IMG/VR virus record: IMGVR_UViG_3300034045_000028
Coordinates: 1 to 27,107 of that record
Source of the DNA: a virus
Direction: 5' to 3' (one strand)
Length of the DNA stretch: 27,107 nucleotides
The position numbers and the translations under genes are program-made. Shown here piece after piece: positions 4,384-27,107 of the stretch. Each line of letters starts with the position of its first letter. Position 1 is the first letter of the stretch. Under the pieces are notes generated by a model. That model was not told the origin of the DNA. It saw nothing but the letters and a program-made list of their open reading frames with translations, and searched no databases.

Positions 4384-4702
4384 TGAGTTCCAAGTACGGG
4401 CTTTAAACACAGCAATTTATACCTACCCTGATTACCCGTTCGTTGCACTAGCAGAGGAGGCAGGAGAAGCGCTTGGTAAGTTAGCCAAGTGCGCCCGTAA
4501 GCAGGGTGTGCCTGTGCATGAAGCCTTGCACTTAGTTGATAAGCAAGAAGCGGCTAAAGAGCTATTCGATGTGTTGTGGAATGTTGCGTGTTGTGCTGTT
4601 GAGCTTGGCTACTCACTAGAAGATTTAGCCGAATTGGGTCTAGCAAAACTAGAAGACAGGGCTAAGCGTGGTGTACTTAACGGTGAAGGAGATAACAGAT
4701 AA
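4343..4702 (+). CDS. MazG-like nucleotide pyrophosphohydrolase
   Basis: 119-residue all-helical protein with the metal-binding signature of the MazG/dUTPase superfamily: E38-E39-x-x-E42 (ALAEEAGEALGKL) and E73-x-x-D76 (AAKELFDVLWNVA). Members hydrolyse NTPs or dNTPs to the monophosphate plus pyrophosphate; in phages they have been proposed to adjust nucleotide pools or lower ppGpp, but the substrate cannot be read from the sequence. ATG 4343 is used because GGAGG at 4333-4337 lies 5 bases upstream; the frame extends back to GTG 4319 without a ribosome site. It overlaps the glutaredoxin by 41 bases and shares a TAATG junction with thyX. Confidence 0.85.
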   Translation: MKSETTSSNRVTLNEFQVRALNTAIYTYPDYPFVALAEEAGEALGKLAKCARKQGVPVHEALHLVDKQEAAKELFDVLWNVACCAVELGYSLEDLAELGLAKLEDRAKRGVLNGEGDNR

Positions 4703-5367
4703 TGTTCATTCGTAAGTGTAATGTTGAGTTAATTGATTACATGGGTAGTGATAAGTCTGTCGTCAATGCGGCTAGGGTGTCATTCGCTAAGGATAAGATG
4801 TCTGAAGTGCTTGATGACAGAGACGAGTCACTTATCCGTTATTTAGCAAGACACAACCACTGGACGCCATTCGCCCACAACAGCATAACACTACGCATCA
4901 CAGCGCCTATTCCAATCCGCACGCAGTGCTTCAAGCATAAATTCGGGTTCGTAGAGAATGAGCAATCGAGACGTTACATATCTATTAAGCCTGACATTTT
5001 CGCGCCTGAATTTCGCGAAGCTGTTGCTAGTAAGAAACAAGGTAGCGGTGAGGTGTTCGATGACCCTACACAAGGGCGTTTAGCTTATATCTACAGAGAG
5101 TACGCCAAGATTGCTTTAAGCGCCTATCAGACGCTATTAGAGCAAGGCGTATGCGAGGAGCAAGCTAGATTCATCTTACCGCAAGGCATGATGACTACTT
5201 GGTATTGGACTGGAAGTTTAGCGGCATACGCTAGATTTTACCGTCAACGTACAGATCCCCATGCTCAAGTTGAGATACAAGATCTTGCAACGAGAGTAGG
5301 TGAAGTTATCGAACCATTATTTCCTATTTCTTGGAAAGCACTAACAGAGGTAAGCACATGGGAATAA
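4702..5367 (+). CDS. thyX: Flavin-dependent thymidylate synthase ThyX
   Basis: 221-residue FAD-dependent enzyme that makes dTMP from dUMP with methylenetetrahydrofolate and NADPH. Family marks are the N-terminal ARVSF segment, RHNHWTPFAHNSITLRI, the signature around residues 78-92 (KHK, then NEQSRRY, with S89 at the conserved Ser position), and the C-terminal RTDPHAQVEIQDLA segment that binds dUMP and flavin. The signature departs from the consensus RHRx7S: both arginines are lysine and, by my count, one extra residue lies before the serine. GAAGGAGAT precedes the ATG and the start overlaps the mazG-like stop. It supplies thymidylate alongside the reductase genes that follow. Confidence 0.93.
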   Translation: MFIRKCNVELIDYMGSDKSVVNAARVSFAKDKMSEVLDDRDESLIRYLARHNHWTPFAHNSITLRITAPIPIRTQCFKHKFGFVENEQSRRYISIKPDIFAPEFREAVASKKQGSGEVFDDPTQGRLAYIYREYAKIALSAYQTLLEQGVCEEQARFILPQGMMTTWYWTGSLAAYARFYRQRTDPHAQVEIQDLATRVGEVIEPLFPISWKALTEVSTWE

Positions 5368-7496
5368 CAGTAATTAAGAACTCAGGTGAGCGCGAGCCGT
5401 TTGACCGTGAGAAAATTTTACAGCTATTGCGCTATATGAATGAAGGGTCGTATGCGCCTGAGTTCTTGCTTAATAAGTTATTAGAGCGCATTAGTGATGA
5501 AGTAACTACAACAGAGATTCACACAACACTTATTAATATTTGTCTTGAACAAGAGTCGTATCAGTGGAGTAGACGGGCGGCTCGTCTGTTCCATGCTATC
5601 ACACGTAAGAACATGAAGCGTAAGCTCGGTGTTGATGACAAGGCTTCATTCCGTGAGATTGCTTACGCTCTAGGTAATGCAGGCTTGTGGGATATTGACA
5701 CAGTAGCGTGTGTAACTGACGAGGTGGAGTTGTTATATAAGGAGTTGTACGTACATCGATTCCAATACTGGCAATTGAAGCAATGGGCTGATAAGTACAG
5801 CTTACGGATTGACGGTGTGCCTGTTGAGACTCCACACATAGGTGCTATTGGTATCGCATTGGCTATTCATGGTTGCACTAAGGAAGCATTCGATTTAGCG
5901 CGTGCGATTGTATATGGCAAAATCAACCTACCTACACCTGTACTTAACGGGTGTCGTAACGGTGATTTCGATACGATAAGTTGTTGTGTTATCAGCGCTG
6001 ACGACAACGTACCGTCTATTGGCACAGGCTTGACGATAGCTTATCGTATGACCGCGAAGAAGGCAGGTATTGGTATTGAGTTCCGTACACGTTCAGCAGG
6101 TGAGCCTGTGCGTAATGGGGCTACTAAACACCTAGGTAAGCACTCGATATACGCCACTCTTGATAAGTCTGTCAAGATGTTCACACAAGTAACACGAGGC
6201 GGTTCAGCGACCGTAACGTACAAGGTGATTGACCCTGAGATTCTCAATCTCTTGTATTACAAATCGCAACGTGTGCCTGAGAATGTGCGTTTAGACAAGA
6301 TGGACTACAGCATGGCGTATAACGATGCGTTTGTTAATGCTGTTATTTCTGATGGGTACTGGTATCTATTCGATTACGCTAAGTACAAGTACATACACGA
6401 TGCTTTCCCGTTTATGACTTACGGAGAGCTCAAGGCGCAAGGTGAGGCTTTGGGTGTAACTAAAGTCAAAGCTAGGGATATTCTCAAAGCATTTCTGACA
6501 GTGCGTGTTGAGACAGGACGTTTGTATTGCATCAACCTATCACGAGCTAACATACACACACCATTTACCGACCTCATTCATCTATCGAACTTATGTCAAG
6601 AGATATGTTTACCAACACGTCCATACATGAGCGATAACATAGATGAATCAGGCGAGACAGCGTTCTGTACGCTTGCGGCTATCAATGTGTCAGCTCTTGG
6701 TTCGCTCGATGAATACAAGCACTTAGCGCCTCTTATTGTACTAACTCTTAACCGCTTGATTGACTACGCGCCTTCGCTGACTGACACAATGAAAGAACAG
6801 TTGATGGAGAGACGTTCACTTGGTATTGGCATCACAGGGTTAGCAGGCTACTTATATAACAAAGGGCTTGACTATGACGGCTCTAATGAGACGACAGAAG
6901 CAGTCGCTGAGTTAGCTGAGTGTCACTACTATCATCTACTTAAAGCGTCACAGGATTTAGTTGAGAAGGGTGTTTATGAGCCTGTAATGCGGATAGATAC
7001 CAACTGGTTGCCTATTGATACAGCTAAGCTAAACGGTCACACACCTAAGATGGATTGGGAGGCGCTACGTGGTAGACCGCGCTGTAATTCAGTACTCGTG
7101 GCTCACATGCCTACCGAGAGTTCAGCGGTGTTTTCTGATGCAACGAATGGTTTGTATCCAGTAAGACAGCGTGTTGTGAACAAGTTATCACGTAACGGCA
7201 ATGTGCAGTACATAGCGCCTGAAGGTAACTATAAGCTCGCTTGGGAAGTCGATAACGAAGACTTAGTGCAGGTATATAGCATCATTCAGGATTACACCGA
7301 CCAAGCTATTAGCGCTGATTACTACTTAGACTTACAGCGTTTAGGGGGCAAGGTGCGTATGAGCGACCTTATGAAACATTGGGTTAGCCATTCGCGTGCA
7401 GGTGTTAAGACGATGTATTACCTCAATACCAATGACTACACAGGCGAGTTGTTTGACGGTACAAAAGAGGAGGCGTGCGAAAGTTGCAAACTGTAG
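5358..7496 (+). CDS. nrdA: Class Ia ribonucleoside-diphosphate reductase, alpha subunit
   Basis: 712-residue large subunit of aerobic ribonucleotide reductase, which reduces NDPs to dNDPs. An ATP-cone-like allosteric domain starts the protein (residues 1-85, VIKNSGEREPFDREKI). Catalytic residues are in place: cysteines at 209/210 (SCCV), N411-C413-E415 (NLCQE), C437 (FCTLAA), the radical-transfer pair Y687-Y688, and a C-terminal C-E-S-C-K-L pair for reduction by a redoxin, probably the nearby glutaredoxin. The DATNGLYP loop also matches the family. ATG 5358 is preferred over an upstream TTG (5331) because of AGAGG at 5346-5350. It overlaps thyX by 10 bases and nrdB by 22. I see no intron or intein. 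Confidence 0.96.
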   Translation: MGITVIKNSGEREPFDREKILQLLRYMNEGSYAPEFLLNKLLERISDEVTTTEIHTTLINICLEQESYQWSRRAARLFHAITRKNMKRKLGVDDKASFREIAYALGNAGLWDIDTVACVTDEVELLYKELYVHRFQYWQLKQWADKYSLRIDGVPVETPHIGAIGIALAIHGCTKEAFDLARAIVYGKINLPTPVLNGCRNGDFDTISCCVISADDNVPSIGTGLTIAYRMTAKKAGIGIEFRTRSAGEPVRNGATKHLGKHSIYATLDKSVKMFTQVTRGGSATVTYKVIDPEILNLLYYKSQRVPENVRLDKMDYSMAYNDAFVNAVISDGYWYLFDYAKYKYIHDAFPFMTYGELKAQGEALGVTKVKARDILKAFLTVRVETGRLYCINLSRANIHTPFTDLIHLSNLCQEICLPTRPYMSDNIDESGETAFCTLAAINVSALGSLDEYKHLAPLIVLTLNRLIDYAPSLTDTMKEQLMERRSLGIGITGLAGYLYNKGLDYDGSNETTEAVAELAECHYYHLLKASQDLVEKGVYEPVMRIDTNWLPIDTAKLNGHTPKMDWEALRGRPRCNSVLVAHMPTESSAVFSDATNGLYPVRQRVVNKLSRNGNVQYIAPEGNYKLAWEVDNEDLVQVYSIIQDYTDQAISADYYLDLQRLGGKVRMSDLMKHWVSHSRAGVKTMYYLNTNDYTGELFDGTKEEACESCKL

Positions 7497-8554
7497 TATT
7501 CAACAAGGATAACGTAGGACACAAGACAGGTTCATACCCTTTATTCTTGGGTGAGCCGCTTGGTCTTATGGACACAATCAATATCAACTACCCAGATATT
7601 GAGCAATTATATCAACAACAAGTGGCTCAGATATGGAATGAGCTTGAAGTTGACTTGACACGCGATAGAAACGAAATGCTGTCGTTGCCTCGTAAGACAG
7701 TAGACTTAATGGTCAAAACGATTATGTGGCAACACACGGCTGATTCAATCGCTTCGCGCTCTATTATCGAGACATTAGGGCGTTATGCGACTAACAGTGA
7801 GTTAGTCAACTTGATGCAGGTGTGGTCGTTCTTTGAAGTTATTCATGGGCGAACCTACAGCCACATCATCAAGCAGACATTCGTTGAGCCTAATGAGGCT
7901 TTAGAGGGCATATATCAAGACTACCGTGTCTTACAGCGAAGTCAGATAATTATTGATACATTCAACGACTTAGCCGTATATCAAGGTAATGATGACGCGG
8001 AATTGAAACGCTTGATTATCAAGGTTTTATTCGCTCTATATTGCTTTGAAGCAGTGGCTTTTATGTCTTCATTTGCAGTGACATTTGGTATTGCTGAGAC
8101 AGGCAAGTTCACAGGTATTGGACAGTTAGTGAAGTTAATTTGTCGTGATGAAGTATTACACGTCAGAGCAGGCTTAACGGTGATGAAGCACCTCAAAGCT
8201 AACCATGACTGGCTCAGCATGTTTTACCAATTACAAGATGAGTTGTCAGACATTTTACATGAAGTGGTCAAAAGTGAATTAGAGTGGGCTGACTACTTAT
8301 TCGCAGACGGTCGCGGTGTTCATGGTCTTAATGCTCAGTTATTGCGGTCTTACACCTTATATATGGCAGGTCAAGCCGCTAGTGCTATTGGTCTGACACT
8401 TGATTACAAGACACCAGAGGCTAACCCTTTGCCTTATATGGATAAGTATATCGACTCAAGGAAGGTGCAAGCCGCGGCACAAGAGATTCAATTAACCAGT
8501 TATAACATCGGTGTGATTATTGACGACACAGCCGATTTAATCTTGACAGACTAA
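7475..8554 (+). CDS. nrdB: Class Ia ribonucleoside-diphosphate reductase, beta subunit
   Basis: 359-residue radical-generating subunit that forms the diiron-tyrosyl cofactor for NrdA. All six iron ligands and the radical tyrosine can be placed: D90, E121, H124, E192, E226, H229 and Y128 (FFEVIHGRTYSHI; ICRDEVLH). It is therefore an ordinary tyrosyl-radical enzyme, not one of the Tyr-less or metal-free variants. The best start is GTG 7475 with GAGGAGG at 7467-7473 just before it; TTG 7484 would give a longer spacer and cannot be excluded. The start lies inside the end of nrdA, implying translational coupling that would keep the two subunits in ratio. Confidence 0.95.
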   Translation: MRKLQTVVFNKDNVGHKTGSYPLFLGEPLGLMDTININYPDIEQLYQQQVAQIWNELEVDLTRDRNEMLSLPRKTVDLMVKTIMWQHTADSIASRSIIETLGRYATNSELVNLMQVWSFFEVIHGRTYSHIIKQTFVEPNEALEGIYQDYRVLQRSQIIIDTFNDLAVYQGNDDAELKRLIIKVLFALYCFEAVAFMSSFAVTFGIAETGKFTGIGQLVKLICRDEVLHVRAGLTVMKHLKANHDWLSMFYQLQDELSDILHEVVKSELEWADYLFADGRGVHGLNAQLLRSYTLYMAGQAASAIGLTLDYKTPEANPLPYMDKYIDSRKVQAAAQEIQLTSYNIGVIIDDTADLILTD

Positions 8555-11132: not shown

Positions 11133-11852
11133 ATGGATACAAATAATAAACCAGAAGAAAGTTTACCTGAGATCGGTACGCCAGAGTATGACGAGTACAT
11201 GGTTAAAGTTCACAGAGAAACACACGGGGTATCAGATGAAGCCGAGAATGAGGAAAAAGCAGATAAAGCTGACTCAGAGGAGAAGACTGAACTTCCTGAA
11301 GGTTTGACACTAGAACAGCTCATTGAGTTCTACAACACACATAAGCAAGCTGACAGCGAAGAAGCCACTGAGGAGACTGAGAGCGAGCCTGAAGCCGAGC
11401 AAGAGCCTGAAGCCGAGCAAGAGCCAGAGAATGACGAGCTAAAAGCGCTCCGCGAGAAGATTAAAGAAATGGAAGACGAAGCAGTACGTCAGGCTATTTT
11501 GGCTGAAGCAGGAGGCGAAGACAGCTACAAGGCGCTCCAGGAGTTTGCCACTGAGAACTTCAATGAGGTTCAGTTAGAAATGTTCAACGCGGCTATCGTG
11601 AACGGCACTAAGGAGCAAGCGGTAGCGGCTGTGTCGTTGTTGAAGCAGTTAGCAAGTGTACATGGCGTGGCAGTGAGCGACAAAGGGTTCATGTCAGGTA
11701 AGCCTAACCAACCGTCAGGTACAATCGGGTTCAAGTCACGAGCTGAGTTCCATGCGGCTATTAGCAACCCGCTTTATAGAGATTTTACAGCTAAGGGTGA
11801 CGCTTATCGAGAAGAAGTACAGAAGCGCTTAGCTTTATCACGTTTTGAATAA
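11133..11852 (+). CDS. Capsid scaffolding protein, T7 gp9-like
   Basis: 239-residue, strongly acidic protein between portal and capsid, the position and composition typical of T7 gp9. Scaffold proteins guide procapsid assembly and then leave the shell. The N-terminal half is Glu-rich and likely disordered, including a tandem EPEAEQ repeat at residues 85-96; a helical middle (ELKALREKIKEMEDEAVRQA) follows; the C-terminus (RDFTAKGDAYREEVQKRLA) is basic-helical, as expected for the coat-binding end. GAGG at 11123-11126 is 6 bases before the ATG. The assignment rests on synteny and composition more than on a motif. Confidence 0.88.
   Translation: MDTNNKPEESLPEIGTPEYDEYMVKVHRETHGVSDEAENEEKADKADSEEKTELPEGLTLEQLIEFYNTHKQADSEEATEETESEPEAEQEPEAEQEPENDELKALREKIKEMEDEAVRQAILAEAGGEDSYKALQEFATENFNEVQLEMFNAAIVNGTKEQAVAAVSLLKQLASVHGVAVSDKGFMSGKPNQPSGTIGFKSRAEFHAAISNPLYRDFTAKGDAYREEVQKRLALSRFE
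11385..11420 (+). repeat. 18-bp tandem duplication in scaffold gene
   Basis: The 18-base unit GAGCCTGAAGCCGAGCAA occurs twice back to back, then a degenerate third copy starts (GAGCCAGAG). It encodes EPEAEQ repeats in the acidic linker and keeps the frame, so it looks like a recent replication-slippage event tolerated in disordered protein. Confidence 0.9.
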
Positions 11853-22458: not shown

Positions 22459-25400
22459 ATGGGTGAATTTAAAGCGTCCATAATTTATGACGGTACAGTA
22501 AACGACCAGATTTTCAGCGTACCGTTTCCTTATCTTGATAAGTCTCATATATATGTTTATGTTAATAACGAACCTGTGCCGTTTGAGTGGCTAGATGACG
22601 CTCGTATTAAGCTACAAGCTAAGCTATTAGATGACGCACAGGTTGAGGTGCGAAGAATTACACCAAGAGATAGACGCTTAGTTGACTTCCAGTCAGCTAA
22701 CCTATTGACTGAACAAGATTTAGACTTATCAGCTACTCAATTATTCTACATCGAACAAGAGCTTGAAGACACCATACAGCGTGTTGAAGCAGGCTCAATC
22801 AGTGAGGCTATTGAGGTCTATGCGGACTATCAAGAAACACGTTATCAATGGTCTGTAAGTATGCCTGAACCTGCTGAGCCGTTCGATGCTGACCCTGAAG
22901 GGTGGACATTAAGTGCAGGTGAGGGCGAGACAGGACAGAGCTTATGGTCAATCAACTGTACCAAGAGTGGGCGTACAGGGGTTGTCAAGAGAGCTTGGAC
23001 GTTACCTACACGCATATCAGGGCGTGATGGTTACGGGGCGAATCCTGTCAAACCTGATTCACCTTTCAATATTCAAATATCTGCGTCTGACACAGCAGTA
23101 TGGATAACCTTTGATGTTCCAAGTAGTGAGGGTTATCTTAACACCAACGTATACAGAGCTGAGTTTAACGGAGTCGATTTACCAGACTTCCAAGACGCAA
23201 GACTTATTGGTAACGGTGTAGGTAACTACGTAGATACAGATGTTACTAGTGGTCAGTGGTACGCCTACTGGCTTGCTCACACTAATGTTAAAGGCGAGGT
23301 GTCAGAGACTAGTGAGCGCGTCACGGTACAAGTCAGATTGCCTTTAGATTTACGCGAAGGGTGGATTAGCCAAGAACACCTAGAAGCTGACTTGAACTCA
23401 CGCATCAACCTTATTGATGACCCACAAGTCGGTTTAGTGACCCTATATGAAACACTAGATAACAGCTTATCAGAAGCACGTAGCTTGGTTGACAGCGCGA
23501 ATGCGACAATAGCGGACATTAATAACAATAAGATACCGCAGTTAAACCAAGAGATTACTGATAAGTACAATGCGGCTAAAGCTCTAGCTGATGCGGCTCA
23601 GAGTGATGTAGACACGATTAACAACGAGGTTATACCTCAACTTAATCAGCAAATCACAGATGCTTATAACAGTGCTGTGCAACAAGTACAACAGGTTGAT
23701 GGTAAGGTAAATACAATACAGACAAGTACGATACCGAACATCAACCAACAACTGTCAGATATAAACGACACAGTAACAGCGCTTGTGGGCGCTAGTGGTT
23801 CTTATGTCACAACTGAGCAGTTGACAGGTGAAGACTTTGCTAAGCGTTCAGAGCTTTCAGCTTACGTTAAAACAGATGATTTAAACACAACTTTAGGCTC
23901 TTACGTGACAAGCACTGACTTAGCTAATGCTGACTATGCGACACACCAAGAGCTAACAGCTTACGTTAAGACAGATGATTTAAACACAACGTTAGGGTCT
24001 TATGTAACTAGCACTGACTTAGCCAATGCTGACTATGCGACACATCAAGAGCTAACAGCTTACGTTAAGTCTACGGATTTAGGTACTACATTAGGATCTT
24101 ACGTAACCACTGAAGACTTAGCTAATGCTGATTATGCGACACACCAAGAGCTAACAGCTTACGTTAAGTCTACGGATTTAGACGAGACATTAAGCTCTTA
24201 CGTTACAAGCACACAATTAGCTAATGAAGACTTCGCCAAGAGTTCAGACTTAACATCTTACGTCAAGACTACTGACTTAAATACAACACTAAGTTCGTAT
24301 GTAACAAGCGAGCAATTAGCAGGTGAAGGATACGCTAAGAGCACTGACTTAACAGCTTACGTTAAGACTACTGACCTTAATCAGACACTAGGCTCTTATG
24401 TCACAAGCACGCAATTAGCTAATGAAGACTTTGCTAAGAACTCAACACTAACTAATTACGTTAAGACAACAGACTTAGATACAACACTAAGCTCTTACGT
24501 AACAAGTGAGCAATTAGCAGGTGAAGGATACGCTAAGAGCACTGACTTAACAGCGTATGTGAAGACTACAGACCTAAACACAACTTTAGGCTCTTATGTC
24601 ACAAGCGAGCAATTAGCTAACGAAGACTACGCTAAGAACTCAACATTAACATCTTATGTCAAGACTACAGATTTAGATACAACACTAAGTTCTTATGTCA
24701 CTAGTGAGCAATTAGCAGGTGAAGGCTTTGCTAAGAGCACTGACTTAACAGCTTATGTCAAGACTACAGATTTAGACACTACATTAAGCTCTTACGTCAC
24801 CGGTGAGCAGTTAGCAGGTGAAGACTTCGCTAAGCGTTCTGACTTAACATCTTACGTTAAGACCACAGACCTAAACACAACTTTAGGCTCTTACGTCACA
24901 AGCACGCAATTAGCTGATGCAGACTACGCTAAGAACTCGACATTGACTAATTACGTCAAGACAACTGACTTGAACACAACTCTAAGCTCTTACGTAACTA
25001 ATGAGCAATTAGCAGGTGAAGGATACGCTAAGAGTACTGACTTAACAGCTTACGTTAAGACAACAGACCTAAACACAACTTTAGGCTCTTATGTCACAAC
25101 TACAGAGTTAGCTGATGAGGACTTTGCTAAGCGTTCAGATTTAACAGCGTATGTGAAGACGACAGACCTAAACACAACTTTAGGTTCTTATGTCACAACT
25201 ACAGAGTTAGCTAATGAGGACTTTGCTAAGCGTTCAGACTTGACAGCTTACGTTAAGACCACTGACCTTAACCAGACACTAAGCTCTTATGTCACAAGCA
25301 CTGAACTAACTAACGCTAACTTCGCCAAGAGTTCAGACTTAACAGCGTATGTGAAGACTACAGACCTAAATACAACGTTAGGCTCTTATGTCACCAGTAC

Positions 25401-27107
25401 GCAATTAGCTAACGAGAAGTTCGCTAAGAGTACCGACTTAAACGCTTACGTTAAGACCACAGACTTAAACAATACACTGACTAATTACGTAACTTCATCA
25501 ACCTTTATCAATGAGAATGAAGCGCGTAAAGATTCGTTAGTCGCTTATGGTATACGTGGGGCTACAATCGCTGAGTGGGAAGGGGCGATAAGTTTTACAT
25601 ACACGCCGACATACTCAGAAGCGGCAACGCTAACGATTGAGAGTCCTATCGAAGGTATAGCCTTCATGGGAGTAGAGATTACAGACGCGGAAGGCGGTGT
25701 TGAAATCTACTTGAATGATAAGGTTGTACTCAAGAACTTTAGTGGCGCTGATAATGAGCGTAAGTGGTACTACACACAAGTTGAGTTGGTACAAGGTGTA
25801 AACACATTACACTTGTGGTCGAGTAACGGTGACGGTGCTTTGTTGCATAAAGTTGTCTTTAAAGGCAATGACTTAGATAGTGAGCTTTCAGCTATCCGTG
25901 AGACAGCACAAGCTACCGCTAATGAGGCTTACTACTCCTTGAAAGTTGACTATAACGGGCGTGTTGCAGGCTTTGGTCTGACATCGAATCCTGAGACAAG
26001 CGCTATCTTGTTCAAAGCTGACCAAATAGGTTTTGACAATGGAAGCGGGGGCGAAATCTTACCGTTCACAGTTAAAGACGATATTGTCTACATAAAGGAT
26101 GCACGTATTAGCACAGTAGAAGCTAATGCGATTATCAACGTAGACGAAGTAGGGCAGGCTGAGAAGCGTGCTCAGTTAGGTAACACGCTTATAGAGGGTG
26201 ACTTCGTACTAGCTAAGACTGGTCAGATTAAATGGAAGGATCTAGATTCGTCTTTCCGTGATTTATTGGTGACACGCGACCCGTCATCGGAACTCACGGG
26301 CGGCACTCGTGATGCTTCAGTCCATGTAGTACCTAGTGACCCTTTAAACCCTGTAGTGGCGTTACAACTAGCGCAGGCAGGTAACACTGACAACCCACCG
26401 CTTAAATCAGGTAGTAAGGTTGTTACGCTTGAAGTCACAGCCACAGGCGGTACTGGTGTAGGGGCGGCTTCGTACATACAGTCATCGAGAGTAGCACCGT
26501 CAGTAAGAGTAGATGTCTATAGACGCAAAGTAGGTGATTCTTCGTATTCTAACCTAGGCAATTATACGTTCACAGGACAGCAGATAAAAGTGTACGACAG
26601 TGGTGGTACTCCTATGTATTACACGTACATTAACGAGACGCATGTGTTTACGCTTCCTGCAACGCCAAGTACAGGTGATTACGAATACTACATTGCTTAC
26701 TCACAGGCTTCGGGCAACTGGGGCGCAAACGGTACGCTATCGTGCTTCCTGAATGAGCCTTTAAGCTCCACAGGCGGTGTATTCGTTGAATCGTTAGCGA
26801 CCGCAAACACCTTAACGTTTACAGGTAGAGACACAAGCAAAGGTGTGTCTGTGTTGAATAAAGACCTGTATATGAATGATTATCAGGTACGCATAGCTGA
26901 TTCTACAGGTAAGCTATACGACTCAGGTAATCGTGTGTATTCGCCTAATAACAATAACATCGGTACAGGTGCGACTAACTATGCCGCAGGTAACCACACG
27001 CACGCATGGTCAGCTATAACAGGTAAGCCTACTACGTTTACGCCTAGCACACATACCCACTACTCATTCGCGGCTACGGATAACAGAACCTTAAAACCAA
27101 ACCAGTT
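22459..27107 (+). CDS. Giant tail fibre, T7 gp17-type N-terminus (3' end outside window)
   Basis: Open frame of 1549 codons to the window edge; T7 gp17 has 553. TAGGAG at 22448-22453 is 5 bases before the ATG. Residues 1-105: T7 fibre attachment domain (FSVPFPYLDK; RITPRDRRLVDF; LTEQDLDLSATQ). Residues about 135-292: gpJ-like segment including a fibronectin-III-like sandwich (SPFNIQISASDTAVWITFD; TSGQWYAYWLAHTN). Residues about 314-447: coiled coil with NNKIPQLNQEI-type repeats. Residues 448-1008: 17 repeats of 33 residues. Residues about 1135-1234: a region like the lambda gpJ DUF1983 module (GRVAGFGL; LPFTVKDDIVYIKDARI). Near the edge, HTH at 1513-1515 and 1532-1534 flank ITGKPTTF, the HxH type seen in metal-binding fibre tips. 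Receptor and any C-terminal chaperone are not visible. Confidence 0.93.
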   Translation, partial: MGEFKASIIYDGTVNDQIFSVPFPYLDKSHIYVYVNNEPVPFEWLDDARIKLQAKLLDDAQVEVRRITPRDRRLVDFQSANLLTEQDLDLSATQLFYIEQELEDTIQRVEAGSISEAIEVYADYQETRYQWSVSMPEPAEPFDADPEGWTLSAGEGETGQSLWSINCTKSGRTGVVKRAWTLPTRISGRDGYGANPVKPDSPFNIQISASDTAVWITFDVPSSEGYLNTNVYRAEFNGVDLPDFQDARLIGNGVGNYVDTDVTSGQWYAYWLAHTNVKGEVSETSERVTVQVRLPLDLREGWISQEHLEADLNSRINLIDDPQVGLVTLYETLDNSLSEARSLVDSANATIADINNNKIPQLNQEITDKYNAAKALADAAQSDVDTINNEVIPQLNQQITDAYNSAVQQVQQVDGKVNTIQTSTIPNINQQLSDINDTVTALVGASGSYVTTEQLTGEDFAKRSELSAYVKTDDLNTTLGSYVTSTDLANADYATHQELTAYVKTDDLNTTLGSYVTSTDLANADYATHQELTAYVKSTDLGTTLGSYVTTEDLANADYATHQELTAYVKSTDLDETLSSYVTSTQLANEDFAKSSDLTSYVKTTDLNTTLSSYVTSEQLAGEGYAKSTDLTAYVKTTDLNQTLGSYVTSTQLANEDFAKNSTLTNYVKTTDLDTTLSSYVTSEQLAGEGYAKSTDLTAYVKTTDLNTTLGSYVTSEQLANEDYAKNSTLTSYVKTTDLDTTLSSYVTSEQLAGEGFAKSTDLTAYVKTTDLDTTLSSYVTGEQLAGEDFAKRSDLTSYVKTTDLNTTLGSYVTSTQLADADYAKNSTLTNYVKTTDLNTTLSSYVTNEQLAGEGYAKSTDLTAYVKTTDLNTTLGSYVTTTELADEDFAKRSDLTAYVKTTDLNTTLGSYVTTTELANEDFAKRSDLTAYVKTTDLNQTLSSYVTSTELTNANFAKSSDLTAYVKTTDLNTTLGSYVTSTQLANEKFAKSTDLNAYVKTTDLNNTLTNYVTSSTFINENEARKDSLVAYGIRGATIAEWEGAISFTYTPTYSEAATLTIESPIEGIAFMGVEITDAEGGVEIYLNDKVVLKNFSGADNERKWYYTQVELVQGVNTLHLWSSNGDGALLHKVVFKGNDLDSELSAIRETAQATANEAYYSLKVDYNGRVAGFGLTSNPETSAILFKADQIGFDNGSGGEILPFTVKDDIVYIKDARISTVEANAIINVDEVGQAEKRAQLGNTLIEGDFVLAKTGQIKWKDLDSSFRDLLVTRDPSSELTGGTRDASVHVVPSDPLNPVVALQLAQAGNTDNPPLKSGSKVVTLEVTATGGTGVGAASYIQSSRVAPSVRVDVYRRKVGDSSYSNLGNYTFTGQQIKVYDSGGTPMYYTYINETHVFTLPATPSTGDYEYYIAYSQASGNWGANGTLSCFLNEPLSSTGGVFVESLATANTLTFTGRDTSKGVSVLNKDLYMNDYQVRIADSTGKLYDSGNRVYSPNNNNIGTGATNYAAGNHTHAWSAITGKPTTFTPSTHTHYSFAATDNRTLKPNQ
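23800..25482 (+). repeat. 17 in-frame tandem repeats of 99 bp (33 residues) in the fibre
   Basis: Repeat units begin at 23800 and every 99 bases thereafter (23899, 23998, ... 25384) with no insertion or deletion; an 18th, degenerate start (NYVTSSTF) is at 25483. Consensus positions: SYVTS at 1-5, L at 8, A at 9, aromatic-A-K/T at 13-15, L at 19, YVKTTDL at 22-28 and L at 32. Each unit itself holds three Y/F-V/A-T/K-x-x-x-L motifs, at residues 2, 13 and 22. Codons differ between units far more than residues do, apart from the first few, which are close copies. The array would build a regular trimeric shaft. Confidence 0.97.

Follow-up and report, generated by a model that had tools for sequence, protein, structure and literature searches.

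The window, by which the whole analysed stretch of DNA is meant, is an IMG/VR contig of 27,107 bp with a T7-like gene order matching that of LUZ100 and a capsid protein with at most 40% identity to those of phages on record. Its last gene encodes a tail fibre and lies, as that of T7 gp17 does, after the internal virion proteins. The features of this gene are:

22459..27105, plus strand: tail fibre gene, 1549 codons, last gene, open at the contig end (ORF list)
22501..22776, plus strand: T7-type tail fibre N-terminal (tail-anchoring) domain, PF03906, E=4.2e-19
23020..23436, plus strand: conserved module ending GWISQ..L..RINLID, 40% identical to the fibre of a related contig (L011, see below)
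23437..23802, plus strand: predicted heptad-like coiled-coil segment running into the array, by eye from the translation
23803..25485, plus strand: shaft array, 17 x 99 bp (33 aa), with 51 predicted β-layer motifs
25486..25551, plus strand: decayed 18th unit (YVTSSTFINEN EARKDSLVA YG), with unchanged spacing but without the second aromatic
25564..25866, plus strand: predicted β-sandwich domain, CBM35/CBM6-like fold, AlphaFold2 pLDDT about 70-80
25921..26142, plus strand: Phage_Tail_Tip/DUF1983 domain, PF09327, E=2e-8

The PF03906 match scored 69 bits, the curated cut-off being 25, and PDB entries matched by the N-terminal domain are N-termini of phage fibres and tailspikes (e.g., 8es4 and 9m4d). 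Together with the DUF1983 domain, which follows the array and whose family we take to include the C-terminal region of lambda J, the anchor domain bears out the original prediction of a phage tail-fibre shaft. For the sandwich domain, the best Foldseek matches were CBM35/CBM6 modules (E 4e-5 to 8e-4), with low TM-scores, most of the model being uncertain, and the modelled domain fits a putative role in sugar binding. It is also the only pointer that bears on the capsule- or O-antigen-reaching purpose which the original prediction put forward as possible for the shaft. The module at 23020..23436 is, as judged by eye, probably FN3-like; it gave no significant match in a PDB search and no match in a search of the genome collection. 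When this module, the array and the C-terminal part were compared with 50,697 phage records by tblastn and blastn, no match was obtained, the low-complexity filter possibly hiding the array.

Within the segment 23437-23802 there are imperfect, heptad-like repeats about 35-40 residues apart (IPQLNQEITDKYN / IPQLNQQITDAYN / IPNINQQLSDIND). Elsewhere in the window, genes for a FAD-dependent thymidylate synthase and for the large and small subunits of a class I ribonucleotide reductase were recognised by eye from the translations at 4702-8554, ThyX being present in LUZ100 too, and a short 18-bp tandem repeat (EPEAEQ) lies at 11385-11425 in a scaffold-like gene.

The repeat array, its copying history and its relatives

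TRF reported a single array of period 99 (score 1118). Direct comparison of the units indicated that all 17 follow one another gap-free in one reading frame, with 13 of 33 residues invariant and a consensus of YVTSTQLANED-FAKxSDLTA-YVKTTDLNTTLGS. Each unit contains three [YF]-[VA]-[TK]-x3-L motifs, and the spacing of 11, 9, and 13 residues holds in 17 of 17 units. The description in the original prediction of 17 indel-free units of exactly 99 bp with an internal triplicate motif was thus confirmed, and only its coordinates (23800-25482) needed correction, lying one codon before the true limits of 23803-25485. With the first motif of the decayed 18th unit included, the run of consecutive motifs reaches 52; in shuffles of the same residues (n=2000) it averaged 1.1 and never exceeded 5. 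The following positions are referred to below:

23803..23835, plus strand: unit 1, motif 1 with 11-residue step (YVTTEQLTGED), recurring every 99 bp
23836..23862, plus strand: unit 1, motif 2 with 9-residue step (FAKRSELSA), recurring every 99 bp, a nonad as in 5APZ
23863..23901, plus strand: unit 1, motif 3 with 13-residue step (YVKTDDLNTTLGS), recurring every 99 bp, spacing as in 2BA2 and 2C3F
24199..25089, plus strand: units 5-13, in which two unit types alternate and to which the latest copies (units 8, 11, and 13) belong

The array is Thr-rich, contains no proline and has no invariant Gly at any position. No model for the repeat was found in Pfam or NCBIfam, and PHROGs matches to the array were to unnamed families. 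Weak Pfam matches to S1_RRP5 and an EST1-like family, below their cut-offs, were set aside as composition. A second IMG/VR contig (3300034033_000015) carries an identical array, and over 11 kb a SNP at 23643 is the only difference. Because the longest exact match between units, that of units 6 and 8, is only 47 bp, assembly collapse of the array is unlikely.

Among the units, mean pS was 0.65 and mean pN 0.18, giving a ratio of 0.27 that serves as a guide only, as the units are paralogous; synonymous sites were saturated in 31 of 136 unit pairs. These values support the earlier view that the units are old copies kept by purifying selection at the protein level. The newer copying that had been proposed for one end was upheld in part: units 2-4 form a tight group with exact matches of 36-37 bp, but unit 1 falls outside it, and the closest pairs, namely 6/8 with the longest exact match, 8/13 as the most similar (92%) and 11/13 with the lowest synonymous difference (pS 0.19), are all interior to the array, which rules out recent copying at the N-terminal end alone. 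In units 5-13 two types alternate, one comprising units 5, 7, 9, and 12 and the other units 6, 8, 10, 11, and 13. Similarity at lag 2 over all units had P=0.0035 against 20,000 permutations, as one of 12 lags tested, and P=0.06 within units 5-13 alone. This pattern suggests that some copying may have occurred in two-unit blocks of 198 bp. Growth of the array would have come about through the duplication of whole units and, probably, of two-unit blocks, and its exact 99-bp period would have been kept because an indel would disturb the register of the layers discussed below.

A homologous fibre with the same domain order is encoded on a 65-kb IMG/VR contig (3300027026_000014, here L011), its pre-array module, sandwich, and DUF1983-like region being about 30-41% identical to those of the window and its later regions likewise homologous. 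It contains YVTQTQLANADYATNSALTAYV, which is nearly a window unit; such a near-unit occurs once behind the sandwich, as YVKTTDLNTTLNS-YVTQTQLANAD-YATNSALTA. In contrast to the window, the L011 array is in pieces, with far fewer and irregular units, several 13-residue steps in a row, and the combinations 13+10+9 twice and 13+11+9 once. No T7-type anchor was found in the L011 fibre and no T7-like capsid in its contig, where an empty search is weak evidence. This homologous fibre, at positions 6785-11125 of L011, probably ends in an S74-type chaperone, for which the match was just below the Pfam cut-off. From these sequence comparisons the shaft module seems to be mobile among fibres, with changes in array size and order. 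As to the length-adjustable shaft that had been envisaged, a count of units in relatives thus gives a divided answer: size and layout differ in L011, whereas 3300034033_000015, the one near-identical contig, also has 17 units, so that the number is constant in the sequences seen.

The predicted fold of the shaft

A trimer is the expected state of a T7-type fibre anchor. In α/β coiled coils (Hartmann 2016, PMC4786415), short helices are broken by three-residue β-layers, which are likewise expected to be trimeric and have the form [hydrophobic]-A/V-T, with a core hydrophobic residue after three further positions; a layer comes after position c or g and the helix resumes at e, and four natural proteins with internal β-layers were named. 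All 51 motifs of the array have the corresponding small or aliphatic centre, T or K as third residue and a core L or I at position 7. From the published register rule we derived permitted steps of 6, 9, 10, 13, 16, and 17, so that the window's steps of 9 and 13 fit the rule and its step of 11 lies outside it. We consider it likely that the array forms the shaft of a homotrimeric tail fibre and adopts an α/β coiled-coil fold, and the trimer of the original prediction is in keeping with what is expected both of the anchor and of β-layers. Nor is this kind of repeat unprecedented, since its motifs match the β-layers of this class.

According to this reading, each [YF]-[VA]-[TK] triplet would form a β-layer in which the three chains cross and step by about 120 degrees round the axis, and the residues that follow (e.g., TTD-L) would begin a new short bundle of three helices whose core holds Leu. 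A 33-residue unit would comprise three layers, two canonical helical segments (6 residues for step 9 and 10 for step 13) and an unusual 8-residue segment; the last of these, belonging to step 11, would probably finish in a cap or turn of the helix, A-[NGD]-[EA]-[DG], ahead of the next layer. Because the 11-residue step lies outside the published rule, this third of each unit is without a solved counterpart. At 1.5 A per helical residue, 17 units would give a shaft estimated at ~60-85 nm, placed between the tail anchor and the sugar-binding-like domain, the DUF1983 domain and the missing tip.

An AlphaFold2 monomer of five units had a pLDDT of 37 and no usable fold, and window units alone gave no meaningful match in the PDB, 5APZ and 2BA2 included. 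When a profile of phage repeats that includes no window sequence was run against 177,635 PDB sequences, 5APZ was the sole match at E<=10 (E 0.12, weak). A second phage-repeat profile, which includes four window fragments, ranked 2BA2 first of three matches in the same set (E 0.92, weak). Both structures are among the four natural proteins with internal β-layers named in 2016 (PMC4786415). The profile comparison with known repeats that the original prediction had proposed thus places β-layer proteins first, but with weak E-values and not from the window units alone.

Layer spacing in other phages and the 11-residue step

IMG/VR and the genome collection were scanned for pairs of motifs whose gap length was left free, and off-frame gaps gave the level expected by chance. 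In the largest scan, whose tally includes a few loci fetched by other scans, the number of contigs was 45 for step 9, 21 for step 13, 6 for step 17, and 7 for step 11, with 4, 2, and 1 for the rarer steps of 12, 14, and 7, whereas off-frame gaps gave 5 contigs in all over about 20 gap lengths. In arrays with at least three motifs, step 9 occurred 181 times, step 13 89 times, step 11 8 times, and step 10 5 times, the counts for 9 being somewhat inflated as the scan pattern fixes one 9-residue step per match. The motif therefore recurs in many phage fibres and is mostly spaced 9 and 13, as the register rule predicts. Among MAG and viral contigs, long β-layer arrays of nearly pure nonads were seen in L018 and L022, and long arrays of 9+13 compound units in L024, L037, and L104. 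A 12-residue step, also outside the register rule, is common to L047, L073, L096, and L097 (16 matches).

The layer-centre residue varies with the length of the step that follows. At the survey loci it was V in 78 and A in 4 cases before 13-residue steps, versus 52 V and 131 A before 9-residue steps; by locus majority the V:A ratios were 25:2 and 17:39, respectively (P=6e-8, an optimistic value as some loci are related). Loci having both steps followed this grammar 14 to 2, and outside the window 7 of 8 11-residue steps had Val at the layer centre. In the window, which was left out of these counts, V, A, and V precede the steps of 11, 9, and 13 in 17 of 17 units. A literature search of partial coverage found no earlier report of this Val/Ala grammar, nor any of phage β-layers or fibre arrays after 2016.

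For the 11-residue step, a tentative proposal, possible though short of an even chance, is that it represents a third class of β-layer linker, with 8 residues between layers, which the c/g-to-e rule bars and which a helix cap or turn might accommodate. Together with the 9- and 13-residue steps it would make a compound three-layer unit in which each chain completes one circuit of the trimer axis (3 x 120 degrees). Long phage shafts would be built from such full-turn blocks, and Val or Ala at the layer centre would partly encode the length of the step. We regard as rather unlikely the variant in which only steps 9 and 13 belong to the α/β coiled coil and the 11-residue step is a flexible joint of a shaft that is hinged instead of stiff: the step does end in N/G/D-rich residues outside the register rule, and its L011 counterparts vary between 10 and 11 residues, but its constant length in 17 units and the invariance of its YVT, its Leu and the Ala that comes next point to a fixed geometry.

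A continuous right-handed α-helical coiled coil of hendecads has the attraction that 33 equals 3 x 11 and that one step is 11, and 11-residue coiled-coil repeats have been reported in a trimeric adhesin (PMC6191539). However, with steps of 11, 9, and 13 a constant 11-residue phase of core positions is absent, the Y and L positions losing it at the third motif; related phage arrays use 9 and 13 rather than 11, and every motif begins with aromatic-V/A-T/K like the solved β-layers. This fold was rejected on motif spacing and is judged highly improbable. Elongated trimeric viral shafts of the triple β-spiral or triple β-helix kind, as in adenovirus, reovirus, and other phage fibres, are common and the Thr-rich array recalls them, but such a shaft is the least probable of the folds weighed and was rejected on spacing and composition, as the motifs are 9, 11, and 13 rather than 15-17 residues apart, the turn signature is missing for want of proline and invariant Gly, and T/S-x-x-D/E-L would be typical of helix starts.

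Significance and comparison with known systems

With the α/β coiled coil as the preferred reading, the window stands out by its run of 52 motifs, its compound 11+9+13 unit, its unpredicted step of 11, and its residue grammar. The next largest array of the survey has 24 motifs, and within the survey, which covers arrays fitting the chosen patterns, the window is the longest and most regular β-layer example. β-layer coiled coils have so far been described from a handful of structures (PMC4786415). The survey suggests that phage fibres commonly build their shafts from β-layers, with a spacing that is quantised and a simple residue grammar, both of which lend themselves to searches and tests. The published rule makes no provision for the 11-residue step, which could serve to test whether that rule needs extending.

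Among solved proteins, Tcar0761 (5APZ) shares with the window a repeated [hydrophobic]-A-T-x-x-D-[LI] layer motif in its 9-residue form (MATKDDIAN). It differs in consisting of pure nonads with Met rather than Tyr or Phe in first position, in lacking 11- or 13-residue repeat steps and in not being a phage fibre. MPN010 of Mycoplasma pneumoniae (2BA2, DUF16) has the sequence YVT-HKQ-LDEKLKN-FVT-KTEF and thus, as in the window, YVT, a spacing of 13, and both core leucines, at +6 and +10 (YVT..L...L..FVT), whereas it is a cellular protein whose short coiled coil has no more than two layers. The Streptococcus prophage hyaluronidase fibre (2C3F) is itself a phage fibre with four β-layers, one pair of which is 13 apart, but has a 6-residue step and is without a tandem array. 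T7 gp17 resembles the window fibre in its N-terminal anchor domain and genome position, but is not known to have such an array. Beyond the anchor, the window fibre resembles lambda-J-type and other fibres.
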